NCBI RefSeq assembly: GCF_000214375.1
Contig: NC_015578.1
Location: forward strand, 1,674,001 to 1,738,000
Direction of reading: 5' to 3'
Source: Treponema primitia ZAS-2
GTDB lineage: Bacteria > Spirochaetota > Spirochaetia > Treponematales > Breznakiellaceae
Length of the DNA: 64,000 bases
The position numbers and the translations under genes are program-made. The notes under the pieces are model-generated. The model was not told the origin of the DNA. It saw only the letters and a program-made list of their open reading frames with translations, and ran no database searches. Below are positions 1,389 to 46,558 of the stretch, piece after piece (positions within the stretch are counted from its first letter, which is position 1; the number at the start of each line of letters is the position of its first letter).

Positions 1389-3158
1389 ATGAAGAATAAT
1401 AAGTTGATTGTAAGGGGAATGTTGGCAGTGTTACTGGCATCCGGTTTGGTTTTGTCGGGATGCGGTGATGACGGTTCAAACGATACACCATGGGCATACC
1501 TCCCTGACATCATCGCCCCAGTGGTAACAGGCGCTGTTATTGAAGATATCGAAAAAAATGTATTAAAAGTAAGCTTTAGCGAAGCGGTTACCGGGGTTTC
1601 AGCGGCGGACTGGACCGTTACCGGCAGCCCAAAAAATATAACCGTCAGCGGTGCTTCGGGCAGCGGCGCAAACTGGACGCTTACCCTGAGCCGCCTGGCA
1701 GTCAATGGCGAGAAGATTACCCTAGCCTATAGCGGAGCCACTGTTGTAGATGCGGTGGGAAACGCGCTTGCAGGGTTTACCGGCAATCCGGTAACCAACA
1801 ACGCGGCAATAGTAGGCAGCCCATACGACCATACCGAGCCTCTGTTGGCTACCGCAGTTATCGCGTACGATGCGCCAAATATACTTATTCTTACCTTTAG
1901 CGAACCGGTTATCGGGGTTTCAGCGGCGGGCTTTACCGTTACCGGTAGTCCCGCAAATATAACCATCAACCGCGCTTCGGGCAGCGGTACAATCTGGGCG
2001 CTTACCCTGAGCCGCCTGGTAGTCAATGGCGAGGCGATTACCCTCGCATATAACGGAAGCGCAATTAAAGACACGGCGACTTCACCTCCCAATGCGCTTG
2101 CGGCGTTTTCCGACAAAGCGGTAACTAACCAGTTCGAACAAGTCATCAGCCCATTTACGGGGTTATATACCAGTGGAAATAAGACTATAAGCTTTAGTGA
2201 TACAAATTGGGCCGTAAAAATTGGTGAAAATTGGTCTGATGGAAGTATCTATGTGGAGGGTATTATTAATGGTACTACTCCCCAATATGTTGTTAACGGA
2301 AATACTGCCACATGGACAGCAGTAGGAACAGGGTCAGGGCTGGGGGGAACTGCTACGCTCTCCGGCAATACCTTGACAGTATCAAGCGGCAACCCTGCCA
2401 TAAACGGCACATACACTAAACAAGCCGGCGGGCCATTCCGTATAAAGGTTACCGGAATTCCTTCAAATGTAATTTCATTAATATCACAATATAATCCTTC
2501 GGCCAAAATTCGAGTTGGTATAAGTGAGCCAGGTTCACTTATACCAACTGACATAGGACATGTAATCGCCGCCAGAGATACAGATCCGGCTGGCTGGGGT
2601 GATATTATAGACGGTGATTCCTATGAATGCTGGATGTACGGTGGAGTCGGTGCAAGGGTATATTATTTTGGCTCCCCCGGGTATTATGATATAAGGTTTC
2701 TTGCTGAGTCGCTTTCAGTCTACAAATATAGGTCTATGGTACCATTGCAGATAAATGAAACTAATATCATCCCGTATAGTTCGTTTACAAATTTTACTGT
2801 CAGCCCAAAAACATTTGTTATAACAGGCATAACAGAAGCGCAAAAAACAGTCGGGCAGAGCGGGTTTATGATTGGCGTGTTTCGTGGCGGAACCACACCC
2901 GAGCAAGCTATATCGCAAATAAATTTGGTTGTGGGATTTGATGGAAGCGGAGACAATTTTTCAATATCAGGAGGATCTGCGCCTTATACGGCAACAATTA
3001 ACAACCTGTATGCCGATTGGACCGGTATAAATACTTGTGACCTATATGCTATGCTGGGTTCCGGCGGCTCAATGAGTTATTATAGGAAGACAGGAGTAAT
3101 ATCTTCTTCGACATCAATAAATGTTAATATGGCAACTTTTGAACAAATAACATTTTAA
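1389..3158 (+). CDS. Secreted lipoprotein with two SWM/Ig-like repeats
   Basis: Start chosen at ATG 1389 because AAAGGAG lies eight bases upstream and a lipoprotein signal peptide follows; the longer frame from 1272 has no such support. Residues 1-24 form a hydrophobic signal ending in LSG before Cys25, a good lipobox, so the 589-aa product should be lipid-anchored. Residues of about 45-130 and 148-245 are two related repeats with the motif F-S-E-x-V-x-G-V-S-A-A, typical of SWM/Ig-like surface repeats in spirochaetes. The C-terminal half is Gly/Ser/Tyr-rich and was not recognised. A predicted promoter (1281) and a downstream terminator (3175-3226) suggest a monocistronic unit. Function unknown; surface or periplasmic lipoprotein is the safe call. 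Confidence 0.8.
   Translation: MKNNKLIVRGMLAVLLASGLVLSGCGDDGSNDTPWAYLPDIIAPVVTGAVIEDIEKNVLKVSFSEAVTGVSAADWTVTGSPKNITVSGASGSGANWTLTLSRLAVNGEKITLAYSGATVVDAVGNALAGFTGNPVTNNAAIVGSPYDHTEPLLATAVIAYDAPNILILTFSEPVIGVSAAGFTVTGSPANITINRASGSGTIWALTLSRLVVNGEAITLAYNGSAIKDTATSPPNALAAFSDKAVTNQFEQVISPFTGLYTSGNKTISFSDTNWAVKIGENWSDGSIYVEGIINGTTPQYVVNGNTATWTAVGTGSGLGGTATLSGNTLTVSSGNPAINGTYTKQAGGPFRIKVTGIPSNVISLISQYNPSAKIRVGISEPGSLIPTDIGHVIAARDTDPAGWGDIIDGDSYECWMYGGVGARVYYFGSPGYYDIRFLAESLSVYKYRSMVPLQINETNIIPYSSFTNFTVSPKTFVITGITEAQKTVGQSGFMIGVFRGGTTPEQAISQINLVVGFDGSGDNFSISGGSAPYTATINNLYADWTGINTCDLYAMLGSGGSMSYYRKTGVISSSTSINVNMATFEQITF
2514..2548 (+). repeat. Perfect 14-bp inverted repeat inside the lipoprotein gene
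   Basis: GTTGGTATAAGTGA (2514-2527) and its exact reverse complement (2535-2548) flank the seven-base loop GCCAGGT. The repeat lies in coding sequence, where it encodes VGISEPGSLIPT. Because of the symmetry, the opposite strand reads nearly the same peptide. Confidence 0.8.
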
Positions 3159-7042: not shown

Positions 7043-8023
7043 TTAGCGTCCCTGGGGTGAATAAAGGTATCTGAAATATTCCATATCCGTGGAAAGGGTC
7101 TTGTCAAATTTTGGGAGGGTACTCCGGTAGGATTCCACGGCTCGCCAGAAGTCGAAGAAGTTCCGGTCCCGGGAATAGGCTTCCGCATAGATACTCGCGG
7201 CTTCCGCGTCCGCAGTACCCCGGATGGTTTCTGCGGTTGCATAGGCTCCGGACAGAATGGACATCCGTTCATTTTCCATGCGTCCCATCCATTCGGCCTT
7301 TTTCCCTTCACCGTCGGACCGGAAGGCCTGGGCTATCTGGTTTCGTTCCTTGATCATCCGGGCGTAGACACTCTGGGTCAGCTCATCGGAATACCGGATC
7401 TGCCGGATTACCACATCGATAAGTTCAATGCCGTATTCGGGAACCATCTTCCGGGACCGTTCCAGGATTTCTTCCGCCAGGGCCCGGCGCCCCCGCTGTA
7501 TGGGTTCCCTGGACCCTGCGGACTGGATCAGTATGGGCAGATCGATCTGGGTGTTGTCCCCAATGCCCAGGCTGTCCGCATTGTCCGCCTGTTCCAGGAT
7601 GATGTTGGAATTCCGCACCGTTTCCCGGAGGTAATTTTCCGCAACCACGGTCCGTACTTCCGAATCAATAACCTCCGCCAGTTTTGAATAGGCCAGGTTG
7701 ATGCTTTTAATGGATTCGTAGAATTTCTGTGGGTCCGCAATTCTCCACCGGGCGGTGACATCCACCCAGATATACTGTTTTTCCCGGGTGGGCATGTTCT
7801 TCTGTTCTCCGTCCCAAGCCATGATTCGTTTGGGGTAGCGTACCACCTGATCAATAAAGGGTGTCTTTATGTGGAGCCCTGCATCGGTGATCACGTTCAC
7901 CAGCCTTCCCATCTGGACCACCACCGCCTGTTCCCCCTCATCTACCACGTAGATGGGGCCTGCCATGAGTATTCCTATCACCACCACTGCAATGATTATT
8001 AGTACCACCATTGATTTTTTCAT
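7043..8023 (-). CDS. hflC: HflC, SPFH-domain membrane protease modulator
   Basis: A 326-aa protein with one N-terminal membrane helix (about residues 5-25) followed by a prohibitin/SPFH (band 7) domain beginning IYVVDEGEQAVVVQMGR. A coiled-coil flotillin-like tail with E-A-E-A-x-A repeats follows. HflC pairs with HflK in a large membrane complex that controls the FtsH protease. The start overlaps the hflK stop (TAATG), a sign of translational coupling. Family assignment is clear from length, topology and pairing. Confidence 0.94.
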   Translation of the reverse strand: MKKSMVVLIIIAVVVIGILMAGPIYVVDEGEQAVVVQMGRLVNVITDAGLHIKTPFIDQVVRYPKRIMAWDGEQKNMPTREKQYIWVDVTARWRIADPQKFYESIKSINLAYSKLAEVIDSEVRTVVAENYLRETVRNSNIILEQADNADSLGIGDNTQIDLPILIQSAGSREPIQRGRRALAEEILERSRKMVPEYGIELIDVVIRQIRYSDELTQSVYARMIKERNQIAQAFRSDGEGKKAEWMGRMENERMSILSGAYATAETIRGTADAEAASIYAEAYSRDRNFFDFWRAVESYRSTLPKFDKTLSTDMEYFRYLYSPQGR

Positions 8024-8994
8024 TACCTTGCCCCTCCTGAAGAACGGGAAGCATTAAGATCCCGCAGGGGGAGGAAGTTGTTAAAATTCCGGTCGATGAT
8101 CACCGTTTCGGTATCATCCTTGAATACTTCTTCCATCATTTCATAGTAGAGCCGCTGCCGGGTAACATCCGGCGCCTTGCGGTATTCTTCGTATACCGAG
8201 TTAAACCGGGCTACATCGCCGTTCGCTTTGTTGATCCGTTCCGCCTCATAACCTTGGGCAATCTGGATGAGCCGGTCCGCCTCGCCCTTGGCCCGGGGTA
8301 TTTCGGCGTTGTAAGCCTGCTGGCCCTCGTTGATCAGCCGGTTCTGGTCCTGTTCGGCTTTGTTCACGTCGTCAAAGGCCTCCTGAACCCCTGCGGGGGG
8401 ATCGATATTCTGGAGTTTTACGGCGATCACGTCGATTCCCAGGCCGTAACCCCGGAAGGTCTCGTTCATAAAAGCTGCACCTTCGTTTTCAATGGTACTG
8501 CGCTGGCTTCCCATGATGTCCATAATTGGCCGATCCCCCACCAGCATATTGATCGCCGACCGGGACACATCCCGGATAGTTTCGGTGCGTTCCATTACAT
8601 TGAACACCCAGGCCATGGGGTCGGTGATTCGGTACTGGATGATCCACTCCACTTCAATGATATTGAGGTCCCCGGTGAGCATGGTAGATTCGTTGGTGAG
8701 GTTTGAGTAAGTGGAACTCACCCCGCTCCTCAGGGTCCTGAAACCAAACTGTTCGGTTTGTACAGTAGTAACGTTAACCAGGTACTGATGGTCTATGCCG
8801 AAGGGCAATTTAAAATGAAGCCCCGGCCCGTAGATGGCGTTGAACTTCCCGAACCGGGTAACCACAGCCTCTTCGGTCTGGTCCACGATATAAACACTGG
8901 TGCCCAAAAGGCTCACCACCACAATCCCCACCACAACGAGGATCACCGTCACGGGGTTCATAAATTTTGAAACCCCCGGGGTTACATTCTGCAT
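8023..8994 (-). CDS. hflK: HflK, SPFH-domain membrane protease modulator
   Basis: A 323-aa protein with an N-terminal membrane helix (about residues 14-35) and an SPFH domain starting VYIVDQTEEAVVTRFGK. The PPAGVQEAFDDVNKAEQD segment and following helices are typical of HflK. It forms a hetero-oligomer with HflC around FtsH. The SD GAGGAG before ATG 8994 is supplied by the last copy of the 60-bp tandem repeat, so repeat changes could touch translation. The gene is shorter than E. coli HflK because the Gly-rich N-terminus is absent. Confidence 0.93.
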   Translation of the reverse strand: MQNVTPGVSKFMNPVTVILVVVGIVVVSLLGTSVYIVDQTEEAVVTRFGKFNAIYGPGLHFKLPFGIDHQYLVNVTTVQTEQFGFRTLRSGVSSTYSNLTNESTMLTGDLNIIEVEWIIQYRITDPMAWVFNVMERTETIRDVSRSAINMLVGDRPIMDIMGSQRSTIENEGAAFMNETFRGYGLGIDVIAVKLQNIDPPAGVQEAFDDVNKAEQDQNRLINEGQQAYNAEIPRAKGEADRLIQIAQGYEAERINKANGDVARFNSVYEEYRKAPDVTRQRLYYEMMEEVFKDDTETVIIDRNFNNFLPLRDLNASRSSGGAR

Positions 8995-9000
8995 ATTGCT

Positions 9001-9180
9001 CTACTCCTCTAAAAAGGGCGGCGCAGCCGCCAGTCAATCGGAAGTGTTACGAAGTAACACCTACTCCTCTAAAAAGGGCGGCGCAGCCGCCAGTCAATCG
9101 GAAGTGTTACGAAGTAACACCTACTCCTCTAAAAAGGGCGGCGTAGCCGCCAGTCAATCGGAAGTGTTACGAAGTAACAC
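9001..9180. repeat. Three tandem 60-bp repeats between the P83/100 gene and hflK
   Basis: Units at 9001-9060, 9061-9120 and 9121-9180; the first two are identical and the third differs only by C to T at 9144, in a hairpin loop. Each unit has two perfect hairpins: GGCGGC/GCCGCC with a 3-nt loop, and GTGTTAC/GTAACAC with a GAA loop. Read in the direction of transcription (minus), the GC-rich hairpin is followed by CTTTTT and then AGAGGAG, so each unit looks like a weak terminator plus an SD. The array fills the whole space between the P83/100 stop and the hflK leader. Confidence 0.97.
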
Positions 9181-10755
9181 CTACTTCCTTTCGGTCAGGT
9201 CCTTTGCATTGAGAAGCACCGCCTGACCTTCGGTGTTCTGGGTAATAATAAGATCATCCTGGAAGGTTACGGTGGCAAAGGGATGCACCGTTACTGTTGA
9301 CCGGGCCTGTCGGGCCAGCTCCGTATTGTACCTGCCTAAGTAGAGGCCACCGGGCGCGGAGCTGATGGCGTAGATATCCTGCCCGTTTATCCAGAGGAGG
9401 CTCTGGGGGTGGATATCGTCTTCCCCCTGTTTAATCATTTCCAGGGTAGCGGGGCTGATCTCCACCAGCCGTATGGCGCCATTGCCCCGGTCCTCCCCGG
9501 CCACGGCCAGTATCTTTCCCTCCATGAGGGTGAAGGTCCGGGCGTTTATGCTGTTCAGCGCCGAGCTTTGCAATGTCGTTCCGGAATCGATCTGTAGTTT
9601 TACTATTCTTCCAAGGGCAGAGTTGGGGCTTTCCAGTTTTATCCCCAGAACACCCTGGGGCGCCTGGGCTGCTTGCTGATTGATGAGCCCCTGCTGATCC
9701 TGGGCTATGTCCTGCCGTTCCTGCTGGGCTTCGGCAGCCTTCTGTTCGGCGAACTCTTCGGTTTTTTCAGCTTCCTGGCGCTGCTCATCCAGTTCCTCTT
9801 CCTTCTGGGCGATCTCTTCATCCTTCTGGTCCGCCTCAGCCTCCCGGGTGTCCAGTTCCTTCTCTGCGGCCTCCGCTTCTTCGGGGCTAATCTTCCCCGC
9901 TTCCTGATCTTCTTTTAATTGCTGCCGGTCTTCGGCTATCTGCTGGCGTTCCTGCTGATTCTGCTGCCTATCCTCGGCTACCACTTTTTCATCATTGGCG
10001 ATGGCTTCCCGCTTGGCAGCGGCGGCTTGTTCCGCCTGTTCCGCCTCCCGTTCCTTGATGTCAACCATGCCCTGGCGCTGGGGTATGCCCTTGTCATCGT
10101 CCTGGCGCAGTTCGCCTATCACATCATTCTCTGTGAGGGTGGAGGTATCTATGGCGCTGAGGGATCCGGGCATGGCGGTTTGCAGGGGAATCACAATCAG
10201 GGAACGGCCGGGCCATTCGTCATATCGTGTGGAAAGCCCCGCCTTTTCCCGGGTCAGGTTCCCAATCACCGGAGTCTTATACCGGCGGGTAAAAAAGTCC
10301 CAGTTTCCCCGGAACACCGCATTGTAGATAGTGATATATTGGGCCAAAAGGGCGGCGTCCCGCTCGCTGTAATCGTAGGCCCCTTCAAGGTAGCCCTGGA
10401 TGATCAGCCGGAGATTGCGGATATGGTCCACCCCTGCATCAGGGCCCAGCCCCAGGATATCCGCATCAAGTTTGTCCCCCTCGGGATCGCTCACCGAGTG
10501 GATCACAAAATACCGGGCAGAAGTGCCAGTGGTGGAATCCCCGGCCCGTATGGCCTGGCCTGCGGTAAACCCGATATTCCGTATCTGGGCCCGGGTTTCT
10601 ATCCGGTCTTGGGGCCCTTCGTAGTTGATGAAGTTTATCGGCTCCTGGCTGGTGGACAGTTCCTCCGTATCGACCTGTGAAAAGAGGGGAGTACCGGAAC
10701 CCAGAATTAAAATAATGGAAAAGAAAAGCAGGTATCTGGCGCCGGGGGTCTTCAT
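9181..10755 (-). CDS. P83/100-family protein
   Basis: A 524-aa exported protein of the spirochaetal P83/100 antigen family. Start set at ATG 10755 because AAGGAG lies eight bases upstream and a signal peptide follows, ending about LFSQ. The N-terminal 200 residues hold the conserved family domain (NFINYEGP, later YDEWPGRSLIVIPL). Residues of about 240-370 are a long Glu/Gln/Ala/Lys-rich coiled coil. The C-terminal part resembles a beta-rich domain. The likely location is periplasmic or envelope-associated; function in this family is not established. Its stop abuts the 60-bp repeat array, and hflKC follow. Confidence 0.85.
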   Translation of the reverse strand: MKTPGARYLLFFSIILILGSGTPLFSQVDTEELSTSQEPINFINYEGPQDRIETRAQIRNIGFTAGQAIRAGDSTTGTSARYFVIHSVSDPEGDKLDADILGLGPDAGVDHIRNLRLIIQGYLEGAYDYSERDAALLAQYITIYNAVFRGNWDFFTRRYKTPVIGNLTREKAGLSTRYDEWPGRSLIVIPLQTAMPGSLSAIDTSTLTENDVIGELRQDDDKGIPQRQGMVDIKEREAEQAEQAAAAKREAIANDEKVVAEDRQQNQQERQQIAEDRQQLKEDQEAGKISPEEAEAAEKELDTREAEADQKDEEIAQKEEELDEQRQEAEKTEEFAEQKAAEAQQERQDIAQDQQGLINQQAAQAPQGVLGIKLESPNSALGRIVKLQIDSGTTLQSSALNSINARTFTLMEGKILAVAGEDRGNGAIRLVEISPATLEMIKQGEDDIHPQSLLWINGQDIYAISSAPGGLYLGRYNTELARQARSTVTVHPFATVTFQDDLIITQNTEGQAVLLNAKDLTERK

Positions 10756-44389: not shown

Positions 44390-46558
44390 TCAGTTTAAAG
44401 ATTCGAAACTTGCATTCGTAGCATCAGCGCAGCCGTTGATAAACGCAACATTTTTTAGAAGTTTATATTTATGGTTATCGTAATCGTATTGATAAACAAT
44501 TGTAAAGGTTCCGGATCCTGCCCAGCTTCCGCTGTCACTGGGGCCGGGAGTTAAATCCAATGTTTGGCCGGGTTCTTTTACATGAAGTTCAAAGGTCTTT
44601 ACTGTTGTATCACGCCAACTTGAATAACCTTCATTATAGTAGGCCGCTACTGGTGTGGAATCATTGAAGACTGTTGTGTTGTTAGCAACAATAAATAATG
44701 AATATTCTATTGTTGGAAGGTCATCAGTGAATTTTAAGATACCCGGAATGATAAAATCCGCTAAGTCAACCGTAGCGCACCCGTTGACAAACTCAACATC
44801 CCTTAGAAGTTTATATTTACGGTTGGAATCGTGGAGATATTCATAAACAATTGTAAACGTTCCTGACCCTGCCCATCTTCCGTGGTCGTAGCTGGGAGTT
44901 AAACCTAATGTTTGGTCGGGTGCTAGTACATGAAGCTCAAAGGTCTTTGCCGTTGTATCACGCCAAGCTGCATAACGATTATTGTAGTAGGCGGCTACTG
45001 GTGTGGAATCATAGAAAGCGGTTGTGTTGTTAGCAACAATAAATAATAAATTTTCTACTGCTGGAAGGTCATCAGTGAATTTTAAGATACCCGGAATGGT
45101 AAAATCCGCTAAGTTAACCGTAGCGCACCCGTTGACAAACTCAACATCCCTTAGAAGTTTATAAGCAGAAGACGAGGTTTGATAAACGACTGTAAAGGTT
45201 CCGGACCCTGTCCATTTTTTGTGAGATTCACCAGTCATAGCTAAGGTCATTGTAGAATCTATATCATTGACGTGAAGCTCAAATGTTTTTTTAGTTGTAT
45301 TGCGCCAACCTGCATAATTTGTACTATAATAAGCTTCTATTGGTATATAATAATTGAATACTTCCGTATCATTAGCTACAACATACAGTGCTTTATATAC
45401 ATCTGTTGGAAGAGTGTCGGCAAATTCCAGGATACCGGAGATCGCAAAGTCAGCCAGGTTAACGGCAACGGACCCATTAACGAACGAAACATTTCTTAAA
45501 ATTCTGGGGTCTCCACTGGAAGCATTATAAAATAGCGTATATGTTCCATTTCCGTCCCATTTTGGATCCGATGAACTTGCATAGTCTTCTATTGTCAAAT
45601 TACTGCGGGTGTGCAGTTCAAATGTTTTTGAACTTGCATTTTTCCATCCCAGGTTGGATGAATAATAAGCCACCGCCGGCATTCCATTAGCTAAGGATGT
45701 TTGACTATTTTCGACAACATAAAAACCAGTAATATCAGGCAGGCTGTCGGTAAATGTCAGAATACCCTTCGGGCCGCTGCTTCCAGACGGATAATGAACC
45801 GTAACCGGATGATTAGTACTGTTAATGCCATCTTTTGTGATTTTGACTTTAACGTTTCCCGCTTTGCTTGTAGTAATCCCCAATTTCCAGCTTATTCCGC
45901 TTCCGGTCAAACTTCCCATCGCCGCTGTGCCGCCATTATTCGTTAAAGTAATATCGGTTCCAACTAATCCGGTAATTGCGCTTGCAAAAGTCAAAGTTAG
46001 TTCAGTAGTAGCCTGGGTATTTGCTGTTCCATCGGCAGTTACAGTAAAAGCAATGCCGTCACCATCGCCGTCACCATCGCCATCGCCGTCACCATCGCCA
46101 TCGCCGTCACCATCACCATCACCATCACCATCACCATCGCTGCCGCCTAATAATGCAAGCCATGATACCAAACTGCTATAAGCCACTGTCGCACTGCCGT
46201 TTACAAATGGGACATTTGCGCGTCCCGTGGCACTATTATCGTTGCCAATATAAATAAGATAATTACCGGTTCCGGTAAACGGAGTTTTATCCATGTTATA
46301 TAAGCTATAGGGGCTGGCGGTATCCGTGCTTCCGCCAAGCGGATTACTTGCCTTCAAAGCTGCTGTATTTTGAAACAAAGCGGCAGTTCCCGAAACTGTA
46401 CCGCCTGTAATTGTTAGAGTACCGGGGGTATCTCCGCCGTTGCTGTTGTCGCCCGTGCCGTCCGTACCGCCCGTACCGGTATCGCAGCCAAAAAATGAAA
46501 GGCTTAAAACCAGCAATAACAAGCCGAGAGTTCCAAATCCCCTGTTTTTCATTTTCAT
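44390..46558 (-). CDS. Repeat lipoprotein with an Asp-Gly tract
   Basis: A 722-aa protein with a lipobox (LSFFGC, Cys25), so probably a lipid-anchored surface or periplasmic protein. After a short N-terminal domain (to about 135) comes a tract of 14 Asp-Gly units, then an Ig-like domain (about 168-265). Four ~100-residue repeats follow, each with KTFELH and V-x-F-V/I-N-G motifs. The last two repeats are very similar, indicating recent duplication. The SD AAAGGGGG precedes ATG 46558; a good terminator follows. Function unknown. Confidence 0.85.
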   Translation of the reverse strand: MKMKNRGFGTLGLLLLVLSLSFFGCDTGTGGTDGTGDNSNGGDTPGTLTITGGTVSGTAALFQNTAALKASNPLGGSTDTASPYSLYNMDKTPFTGTGNYLIYIGNDNSATGRANVPFVNGSATVAYSSLVSWLALLGGSDGDGDGDGDGDGDGDGDGDGDGDGDGDGIAFTVTADGTANTQATTELTLTFASAITGLVGTDITLTNNGGTAAMGSLTGSGISWKLGITTSKAGNVKVKITKDGINSTNHPVTVHYPSGSSGPKGILTFTDSLPDITGFYVVENSQTSLANGMPAVAYYSSNLGWKNASSKTFELHTRSNLTIEDYASSSDPKWDGNGTYTLFYNASSGDPRILRNVSFVNGSVAVNLADFAISGILEFADTLPTDVYKALYVVANDTEVFNYYIPIEAYYSTNYAGWRNTTKKTFELHVNDIDSTMTLAMTGESHKKWTGSGTFTVVYQTSSSAYKLLRDVEFVNGCATVNLADFTIPGILKFTDDLPAVENLLFIVANNTTAFYDSTPVAAYYNNRYAAWRDTTAKTFELHVLAPDQTLGLTPSYDHGRWAGSGTFTIVYEYLHDSNRKYKLLRDVEFVNGCATVDLADFIIPGILKFTDDLPTIEYSLFIVANNTTVFNDSTPVAAYYNEGYSSWRDTTVKTFELHVKEPGQTLDLTPGPSDSGSWAGSGTFTIVYQYDYDNHKYKLLKNVAFINGCADATNASFESLN
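46058..46138. repeat. Hexanucleotide tract coding for (Asp-Gly)n
   Basis: Fourteen Asp and thirteen Gly codons alternate without interruption (minus strand GAY GGN). The steps are six bases, so slippage changes length without breaking the frame. Confidence 0.95.

Follow-up and report, generated by a model that had tools for sequence, protein, structure and literature searches.

The genes hflK (a profile match to TIGR01933; 8023..8994) and hflC (TIGR01932; 7043..8023, overlapping the end of hflK) are found on the minus strand of the window, i.e., the whole 64,000-nucleotide stretch of the Treponema primitia ZAS-2 genome analyzed here, downstream of a P83/100 gene (PF05262; 9181..10806) on the same strand. 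The junction between P83/100 and hflK is occupied by three tandem 60-bp units (9001-9180), for which the minus strand is the sense strand, as it is for all features of the array described below. When TRF was applied to the window, it returned 9001-9185 with a period of 60, 3.1 copies, 99% matches and a score of 363. In transcription order, unit 1 (9121..9180) adjoins P83/100, whose TAG stop codon (9181-9183) abuts it, followed by unit 2 (9061..9120) and by unit 3 (9001..9060), which adjoins hflK. On direct reading, units 2 and 3 have the same sequence and unit 1 is one base off, the differing base being located in the loop of the second hairpin (sense GGCTACGCC vs GGCTGCGCC). Both approaches confirm the three near-identical units described in the initial annotation of this DNA.

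Each unit holds two hairpins, referred to as HP1 and HP2, in the sense layout GTGTTACTTCGTAACAC - TTCCGATTGACT - GGCGGCTRCGCCGCC - CTTTTTAGAGGAGTAG. HP1 (GTGTTAC-TTC-GTAACAC; 9164..9180 in unit 1, 9104-9120 and 9044-9060 in the others) is free of mismatches at all three units, where 0.05 matches per window would be expected by chance with up to three mismatches allowed. It is followed by the unpaired linker TTCCGATTGACT (9152..9163, 9092-9103 and 9032-9043), the CUUC of which is able to pair with a Shine-Dalgarno (SD) sequence on either side, and by HP2 (arms GGCGGC/GCCGCC; 9137..9151, 9077-9091 and 9017-9031), which reads GGCGGC-TRC-GCCGCC on the minus strand, with TAC as the loop in unit 1. 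Behind HP2 come CTTTTT and AGAGGAGTAG; the tail CTTTTTAGAGGAGTAG (9121..9136, 9061-9076 and 9001-9016) carries an SD-like AGGAG, as seen on direct reading. The hairpin GGCGGC/GCCGCC, the CTTTTT run and the SD noted earlier are thus all present, but HP1 had been overlooked. The AGGAG that closes unit 3 (9004..9008) is the present hflK SD, 9 nt from the ATG at 8994, as had been proposed. Another SD-like sequence, GGAAG (9184..9188), lies immediately upstream of the array and overlaps the 3' terminus of P83/100, at what congeners without the element indicate is the ancestral position of the hflK SD. An assembly artefact is unlikely to lie behind the array because the host genome is one contig of 4,059,867 bases and the same element, including arrays of two to three units, is found in many independently assembled genomes.

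A dispersed two-hairpin repeat family

The array is one member of a dispersed family of two-hairpin repeats in termite-gut treponemes. A second array in the same genome, with two copies and a period of 60, is found between a MazF-like and a pyridoxamine-oxidase-like gene and also ends in the SD of the next gene. Using a covariance model built from 91 copies (R2), 19 units were identified at 16 loci of the host genome. Three of these loci hold more than one unit, namely those before hflK (three), the PNPOx-like gene (two) and the gene for V-type ATPase subunit K (two, of differing types). Single units precede, among others, PEPCK, sensor-like, nitrogenase-like, etfA-like, rpsI, response regulator, hsp20, asd, LrgA-like and rplP genes, where the identities were in part assigned by profile searches.

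A narrower model built from 28 copies (R1) detected the element in 79 of the 200 genomes of the taxonomic family, representing 33 of 57 genera. With R2, 62 of 294 genomes of the order were positive, all of them within this same family, and no copies were found in the other families of the order. The 19-mer GTTACTTCGTAACACTTCC matches, among 85,000 species, solely metagenome-assembled genomes of Spirochaetia/Treponema. A phage origin was considered and rejected, the core 19-mer being absent from IMG/VR. Comparison with Rfam 15 (cmscan of 8000-10200, E values up to 10) gave no match on the array, the covariance models of Termite-flg and Termite-leu did not match it either, and a search of 18 further loci at gathering level returned tRNAs only. 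In the open-access literature, i.e., with subscription journals outside the search, no report was found of a repeat that inserts at SD sequences or of such a repeat in termite Treponema. The family is thus previously unlisted: it has no Rfam entry and none was found in the open-access literature.

Copies within one genome are no more similar to each other than to those of sister species, and similarity is greater within than between genera. Genome-specific homogenization, which would signal recent spread, was therefore rejected; similarity is set at the level of the genus, and spread inside a genome is in general not recent. The suggestion that selection or recent amplification keeps the three hflK units alike needs to be divided: their near identity looks like recent local amplification, and what is conserved in the long term is the hairpin pair, with its compensatory changes, together with the position of the SD.

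The structure of the unit is supported by covariation. Across 89 distinct copies, standard pairs are found in 97.3% of cells, and two-sided changes occur in 12 of the 13 pairs (6 of 7 in HP1 and 6 of 6 in HP2), i.e., in 223 cells as compared with 54 in shuffles, none of 500 shuffles being as high; these counts lean towards the model, to which the alignment had been fitted. When the partner is slid by one column, pairing falls to 32-39%. In the first 28 copies, which were chosen on HP1 alone, HP2 displays 18 two-sided cells where 4 are expected. The variation in HP1 is visible by eye (GTGTTAC/GTAACAC, GCGGAAC/GTTCCGC, GGGAACC/GGTTCCC, GCGCAAC/GTTGCGC and TTAACAC/GTGTTAA), and the conserved unpaired part of the family is the linker, TTC(C)GATTnAC. 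As read from these alignments, both stems are kept by compensatory changes at a constant leader position, and the unit is an element of about 45-60 nt composed of HP1, a CUUC(C)GAUUnAC linker and HP2, with an SD-like AGGAGT(A/T) on both sides. A leader peptide (GTG TTA CTT CGT AAC ACT TCC GAT TAA/TGA in many units) was also considered and rejected because changes in the loop alter residues, GCGTTAC copies lose the start codon and GATTTAAC copies break the frame.

HP2 seems to undergo modular exchange: a long variant (of GGCCTCCCCCGCGTAAGCGGGTTCTTGGCCGCC type) is common to different genera and unrelated genes (L045, L049 and L155). At the V-type ATPase subunit K gene of the host genome (G000:C1:1526488-1526644; L220, L229) the two tandem units are of differing sequence types, and HP2 of the first is enlarged by inverted repeats of GCGTTGCAAGTTGCGC type.

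Position and turnover of the units

The location of the element is nearly invariant. The 133 arrays collected from about 30 genomes (109 single, 20 double and 4 triple) were gathered with models that contain the SD, and in 128 of them the last SD is followed closely by the start codon of an open reading frame in sense orientation, the usual distance from AGGAGTA being 3-7 nt. A stricter rule (a frame of at least 60 amino acids preceded at short distance by an in-frame stop) is passed by 99 of the 133, compared with 4.9% of positions drawn at random from these loci. Because R1 and R2 include the SD, a further model, R3, was composed of HP1, the linker and the 5' arm of HP2 only, and the SD-free scan covered four genomes. 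In the host genome, R3 recovered the known loci at E<0.01 and found no copy elsewhere, which argues against a bias of the search models towards SD sequences as the cause of the pre-start position in this genome. One clear copy has no start codon behind it (L262, 1477-1570 on G072:C19; AGGAGTACTTCAATTTTTCG).

Orthologous sites with and without the element are found at several genes. Two congeners, G003 and G005, hold no units at the hflK site, as compared with three in the host genome. The empty sites read AAGGAGTAAT-ATG and AAAGGAAATAGT-GTG (in G003 AACAAGGAGTAAT-ATG, in G005 CAAAGGAAATAGT-GTG), and here the P83/100 stop codon and the hflK SD overlap. In the S10 operon, the rplB-rpsS junction is without units in the host genome (G000) and has one or two in G072-G075, while the rpsC-rplP junction displays the reciprocal distribution, with a unit in G000 and empty sites in G073-G075. 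The variation in copy number that had been anticipated is therefore found between species, both at hflK (zero in two congeners vs three) and at rplB-rpsS (zero, one or two). The subtype also differs between species at the shared sites fba, asd and etfA, arrays of mixed type are found (L132, L278), and in L147/L155 HP1 is retained and HP2 replaced. A different insertion resides at the hflK site of G001 (L182, G001:C99, ~2470-2600, minus strand): a long inverted repeat of ~130 nt (TTAACCACTAACGACACGAA...), flanked on both sides by AAGGAGTAG and unrelated to the two-hairpin units; an inverted repeat similar to it is located near 2010-2100 of L107.

The two ends of the arrays are related to each other. 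Of 130 arrays, 106 have an SD-like sequence (GGAG/AGGAG) 5' of the first HP1, compared with a frequency of 8.8% among control 15-mers. In 55 of 84 arrays, GGAG is followed by the same dinucleotide at the left and right ends, where permutation within genera gave 39.9 +/- 3.0 and did not reach this value in any of 2000 trials. Such matching is expected if each gain duplicates the SD. The SD-like flanks are thus correlated beyond chance over the whole family; at hflK they are not identical, and the left flank AAAGGAAGTAG and the unit end AGAGGAGTAG do not make up an exact duplication.

From these data we infer that units are gained by transposition or recombination. A unit would be gained immediately 3' of an existing SD, the SD being duplicated along with it, and the 3' copy would become the working SD, so that the gene would stay translatable. 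The SD repeats at both ends would then allow tandem gain as well as precise loss, by slippage or recombination.

Consequences for translation and competing explanations

In the mRNA, the unit would form a two-hairpin leader 6-10 nt ahead of the SD, which would hold the downstream start apart from the stop codon of the preceding gene and place competing SD sequences around a linker that may pair weakly with either of them. Pairing of CUUC with the GGAG before HP1 or after HP2 is predicted with probabilities of 0.27 and 0.25. With the start of the linker replaced, the SD is predicted to be slightly more accessible (0.540 compared with 0.474, p 0.001). The notion that the hairpins hold the SD unusually open was rejected, as the predicted accessibility is 0.47 in the element and 0.44 at ordinary SD sequences (p 0.43). 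Base pairing between the units of the triple array is likewise predicted (MFE z -3.0). Average SD accessibility, a slight effect of the linker and pairing between units together point to a modest effect, and the RNA may modestly alter how the downstream gene is translated or how far this translation is coupled to the gene upstream. At hflK, initiation would be parted from the upstream stop codon and slightly damped, with more damping the more units there are. Taken together, the interpretation that we consider probable is that each unit is inserted behind an existing SD and supplies a fresh one at its own end, and that the resulting RNA leader modestly changes translation or coupling to the gene upstream.

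The initial annotation had instead described the unit as a mini terminator followed by an SD, i.e., HP2 and CTTTTT would act together as an intrinsic terminator of low strength, and read-through from P83/100 into hflKC might depend on how many units are present. This description fits the hflK array, where all three units have a G+C-rich hairpin followed directly by a T run (a 6-bp all-GC stem, a 3-nt loop and CUUUUU), a terminator scan picked out exactly these three hairpins (six overlapping rows vs 0.5 in shuffles) and the copy number differs between species (3 vs 0); termination at the hflK units is therefore possible on the basis of their sequence. It does not describe the family, in which the element is HP1, linker, HP2 and SD. 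Only 50 of 161 units have a T4 run after HP2, those of the host genome being the three at hflK alone, while many units carry TAACATAGGAG, TACATTAAGGAG or CTAAATAGGAG in its place, which shows that termination is not what the family conserves. In addition, terminators within rplB-rpsS or rplM-rpsI would be costly, and both the pre-start position and HP1 would be left unexplained, so that a role of the unit number in setting read-through is distinctly unlikely. The strong covariation, the conserved single-stranded linker with its predicted complementarity to both SD sequences and the near-invariable position before the start could also mark a class of cis-regulatory RNA, an attenuator or a ligand- or protein-sensing leader, in which the CUUC linker switches between the two GGAG sequences to open or close the SD. 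The small effect of the linker on predicted SD accessibility is in line with such a switch. The average accessibility of the SD is not, and the downstream genes (hflK, PEPCK, etfA, V-ATPase K, rpsI, rplP, asd, hsp20, flgL, proA) do not share a common pathway. Sister species have moreover gained or lost the element at individual sites, tandem arrays occur frequently and one sequence type may replace another at a given site, all of which makes a sensor unlikely.

Another explanation relates to mobility, i.e., that the unit is a non-autonomous element derived from REP or IS200/IS605 sequences, and that a Y1 (HUH) transposase cutting beside GGAG/GAGTA mobilizes it in the form of single-stranded DNA. 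Two terminal hairpins, a GGAG-type motif at both ends and strand-specific insertion are consistent with this process, a palindrome is accompanied by a tetranucleotide of the GTAG/GGAG type (the SD-like motif noted above and, in the hflK units, GTAG), and three Y1_Tnp genes are present in the host genome. However, none of the Y1 genes found has a unit within 1.5 kb of it, and no Y1 was detected in 4 of 10 element-rich genomes (G010, G072, G102 and G147, which are 92-99% complete and hold 5-24 units each). Mobilization by Y1/RAYT is thus unsupported and the explanation, already weakened, is very unlikely; Y1/RAYT was the enzyme examined, and no mobilizing enzyme for the units was identified. We return to insertion behind the SD as the preferred interpretation.

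Dispersed repeats of bacteria usually avoid the few most important bases of a gene. The two-hairpin family sits on these bases, before genes for ribosomal proteins and energy metabolism, and ends with a working copy of the sequence that it displaces, such that each gene keeps its ribosome site, now with a folded RNA ahead of it. We tentatively suggest, at somewhat less than even odds, that the units represent a class of selfish or domesticated elements that target SD sequences, inserting behind them and duplicating or rebuilding them. If so, the element would reach essential genes (rpsI, rplP, rpsS) without stopping translation, and the hairpins together with the SD-complementary linker would constitute a portable cassette for tuning translation, the dose of which would change by tandem gain and loss between duplicated SD sequences. 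The natural series of zero to three copies at orthologous sites offers a test of how structured RNA before an SD affects the translation of an operon.

Relation to known repeats

The element is a dispersed, structured intergenic repeat, which is distinguished from the REP and MITE types considered here by its fixed location downstream of an apparently duplicated SD and directly ahead of a start codon. With REP, BIME and REPIN sequences and their RAYTs it shares short palindromes in intergenic regions, tandem or clustered occurrence, a GTAG/GGAG-type tag beside a hairpin and genus-specific types. It differs from them in that the units are always sense-oriented, almost always precede a start codon, end in an SD and contain two different hairpins joined by a fixed linker, and in that no RAYT is found near the units and several genomes rich in the element yielded no RAYT at all. 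BOX elements of Streptococcus pneumoniae (boxA-boxB-boxC) are likewise modular, structured and transcribed intergenic repeats beside unrelated genes, with a variable number of an internal unit; here, in contrast, the whole 60-bp unit is repeated, and each copy ends with an SD and abuts a start codon. To our knowledge, there is no sequence relation between BOX elements and the two-hairpin units. MITEs, ERIC and Correia elements are likewise short repeats without coding capacity that are present at some orthologous sites and absent from others, and their flanks are duplicated, as those of the two-hairpin units may be. In the family described here, the flank that appears to be duplicated is the SD itself, and on reading the units no MITE-type terminal inverted repeats were found, the ends being HP1 and the AU-rich tail after HP2.

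Rfam families RF01729 (Termite-flg) and RF01730 (Termite-leu) are, like the present units, structured RNA candidates from termite-gut bacteria, and the two-hairpin family is itself a candidate structured RNA or repeat family for Rfam and for the annotation of termite-gut spirochaete genomes. Termite-flg is unlike the units in being an element of ~106 nt with one place in the host genome, before a flagellin gene (L074; G000:C1:2326208-2326313 of the single-contig genome). Of 60 genomes sampled from the taxonomic family, 35 have a match above the cut-off of this motif, which is thus not confined to termite metagenome reads. The window holds two other tandem repeats, a 348-bp duplication at 44426-45163 (2.1 copies, 86% matches) and an array of a TCACCA hexamer, or 18-bp period, at 46059-46140 (4.6 copies of 18 bp).
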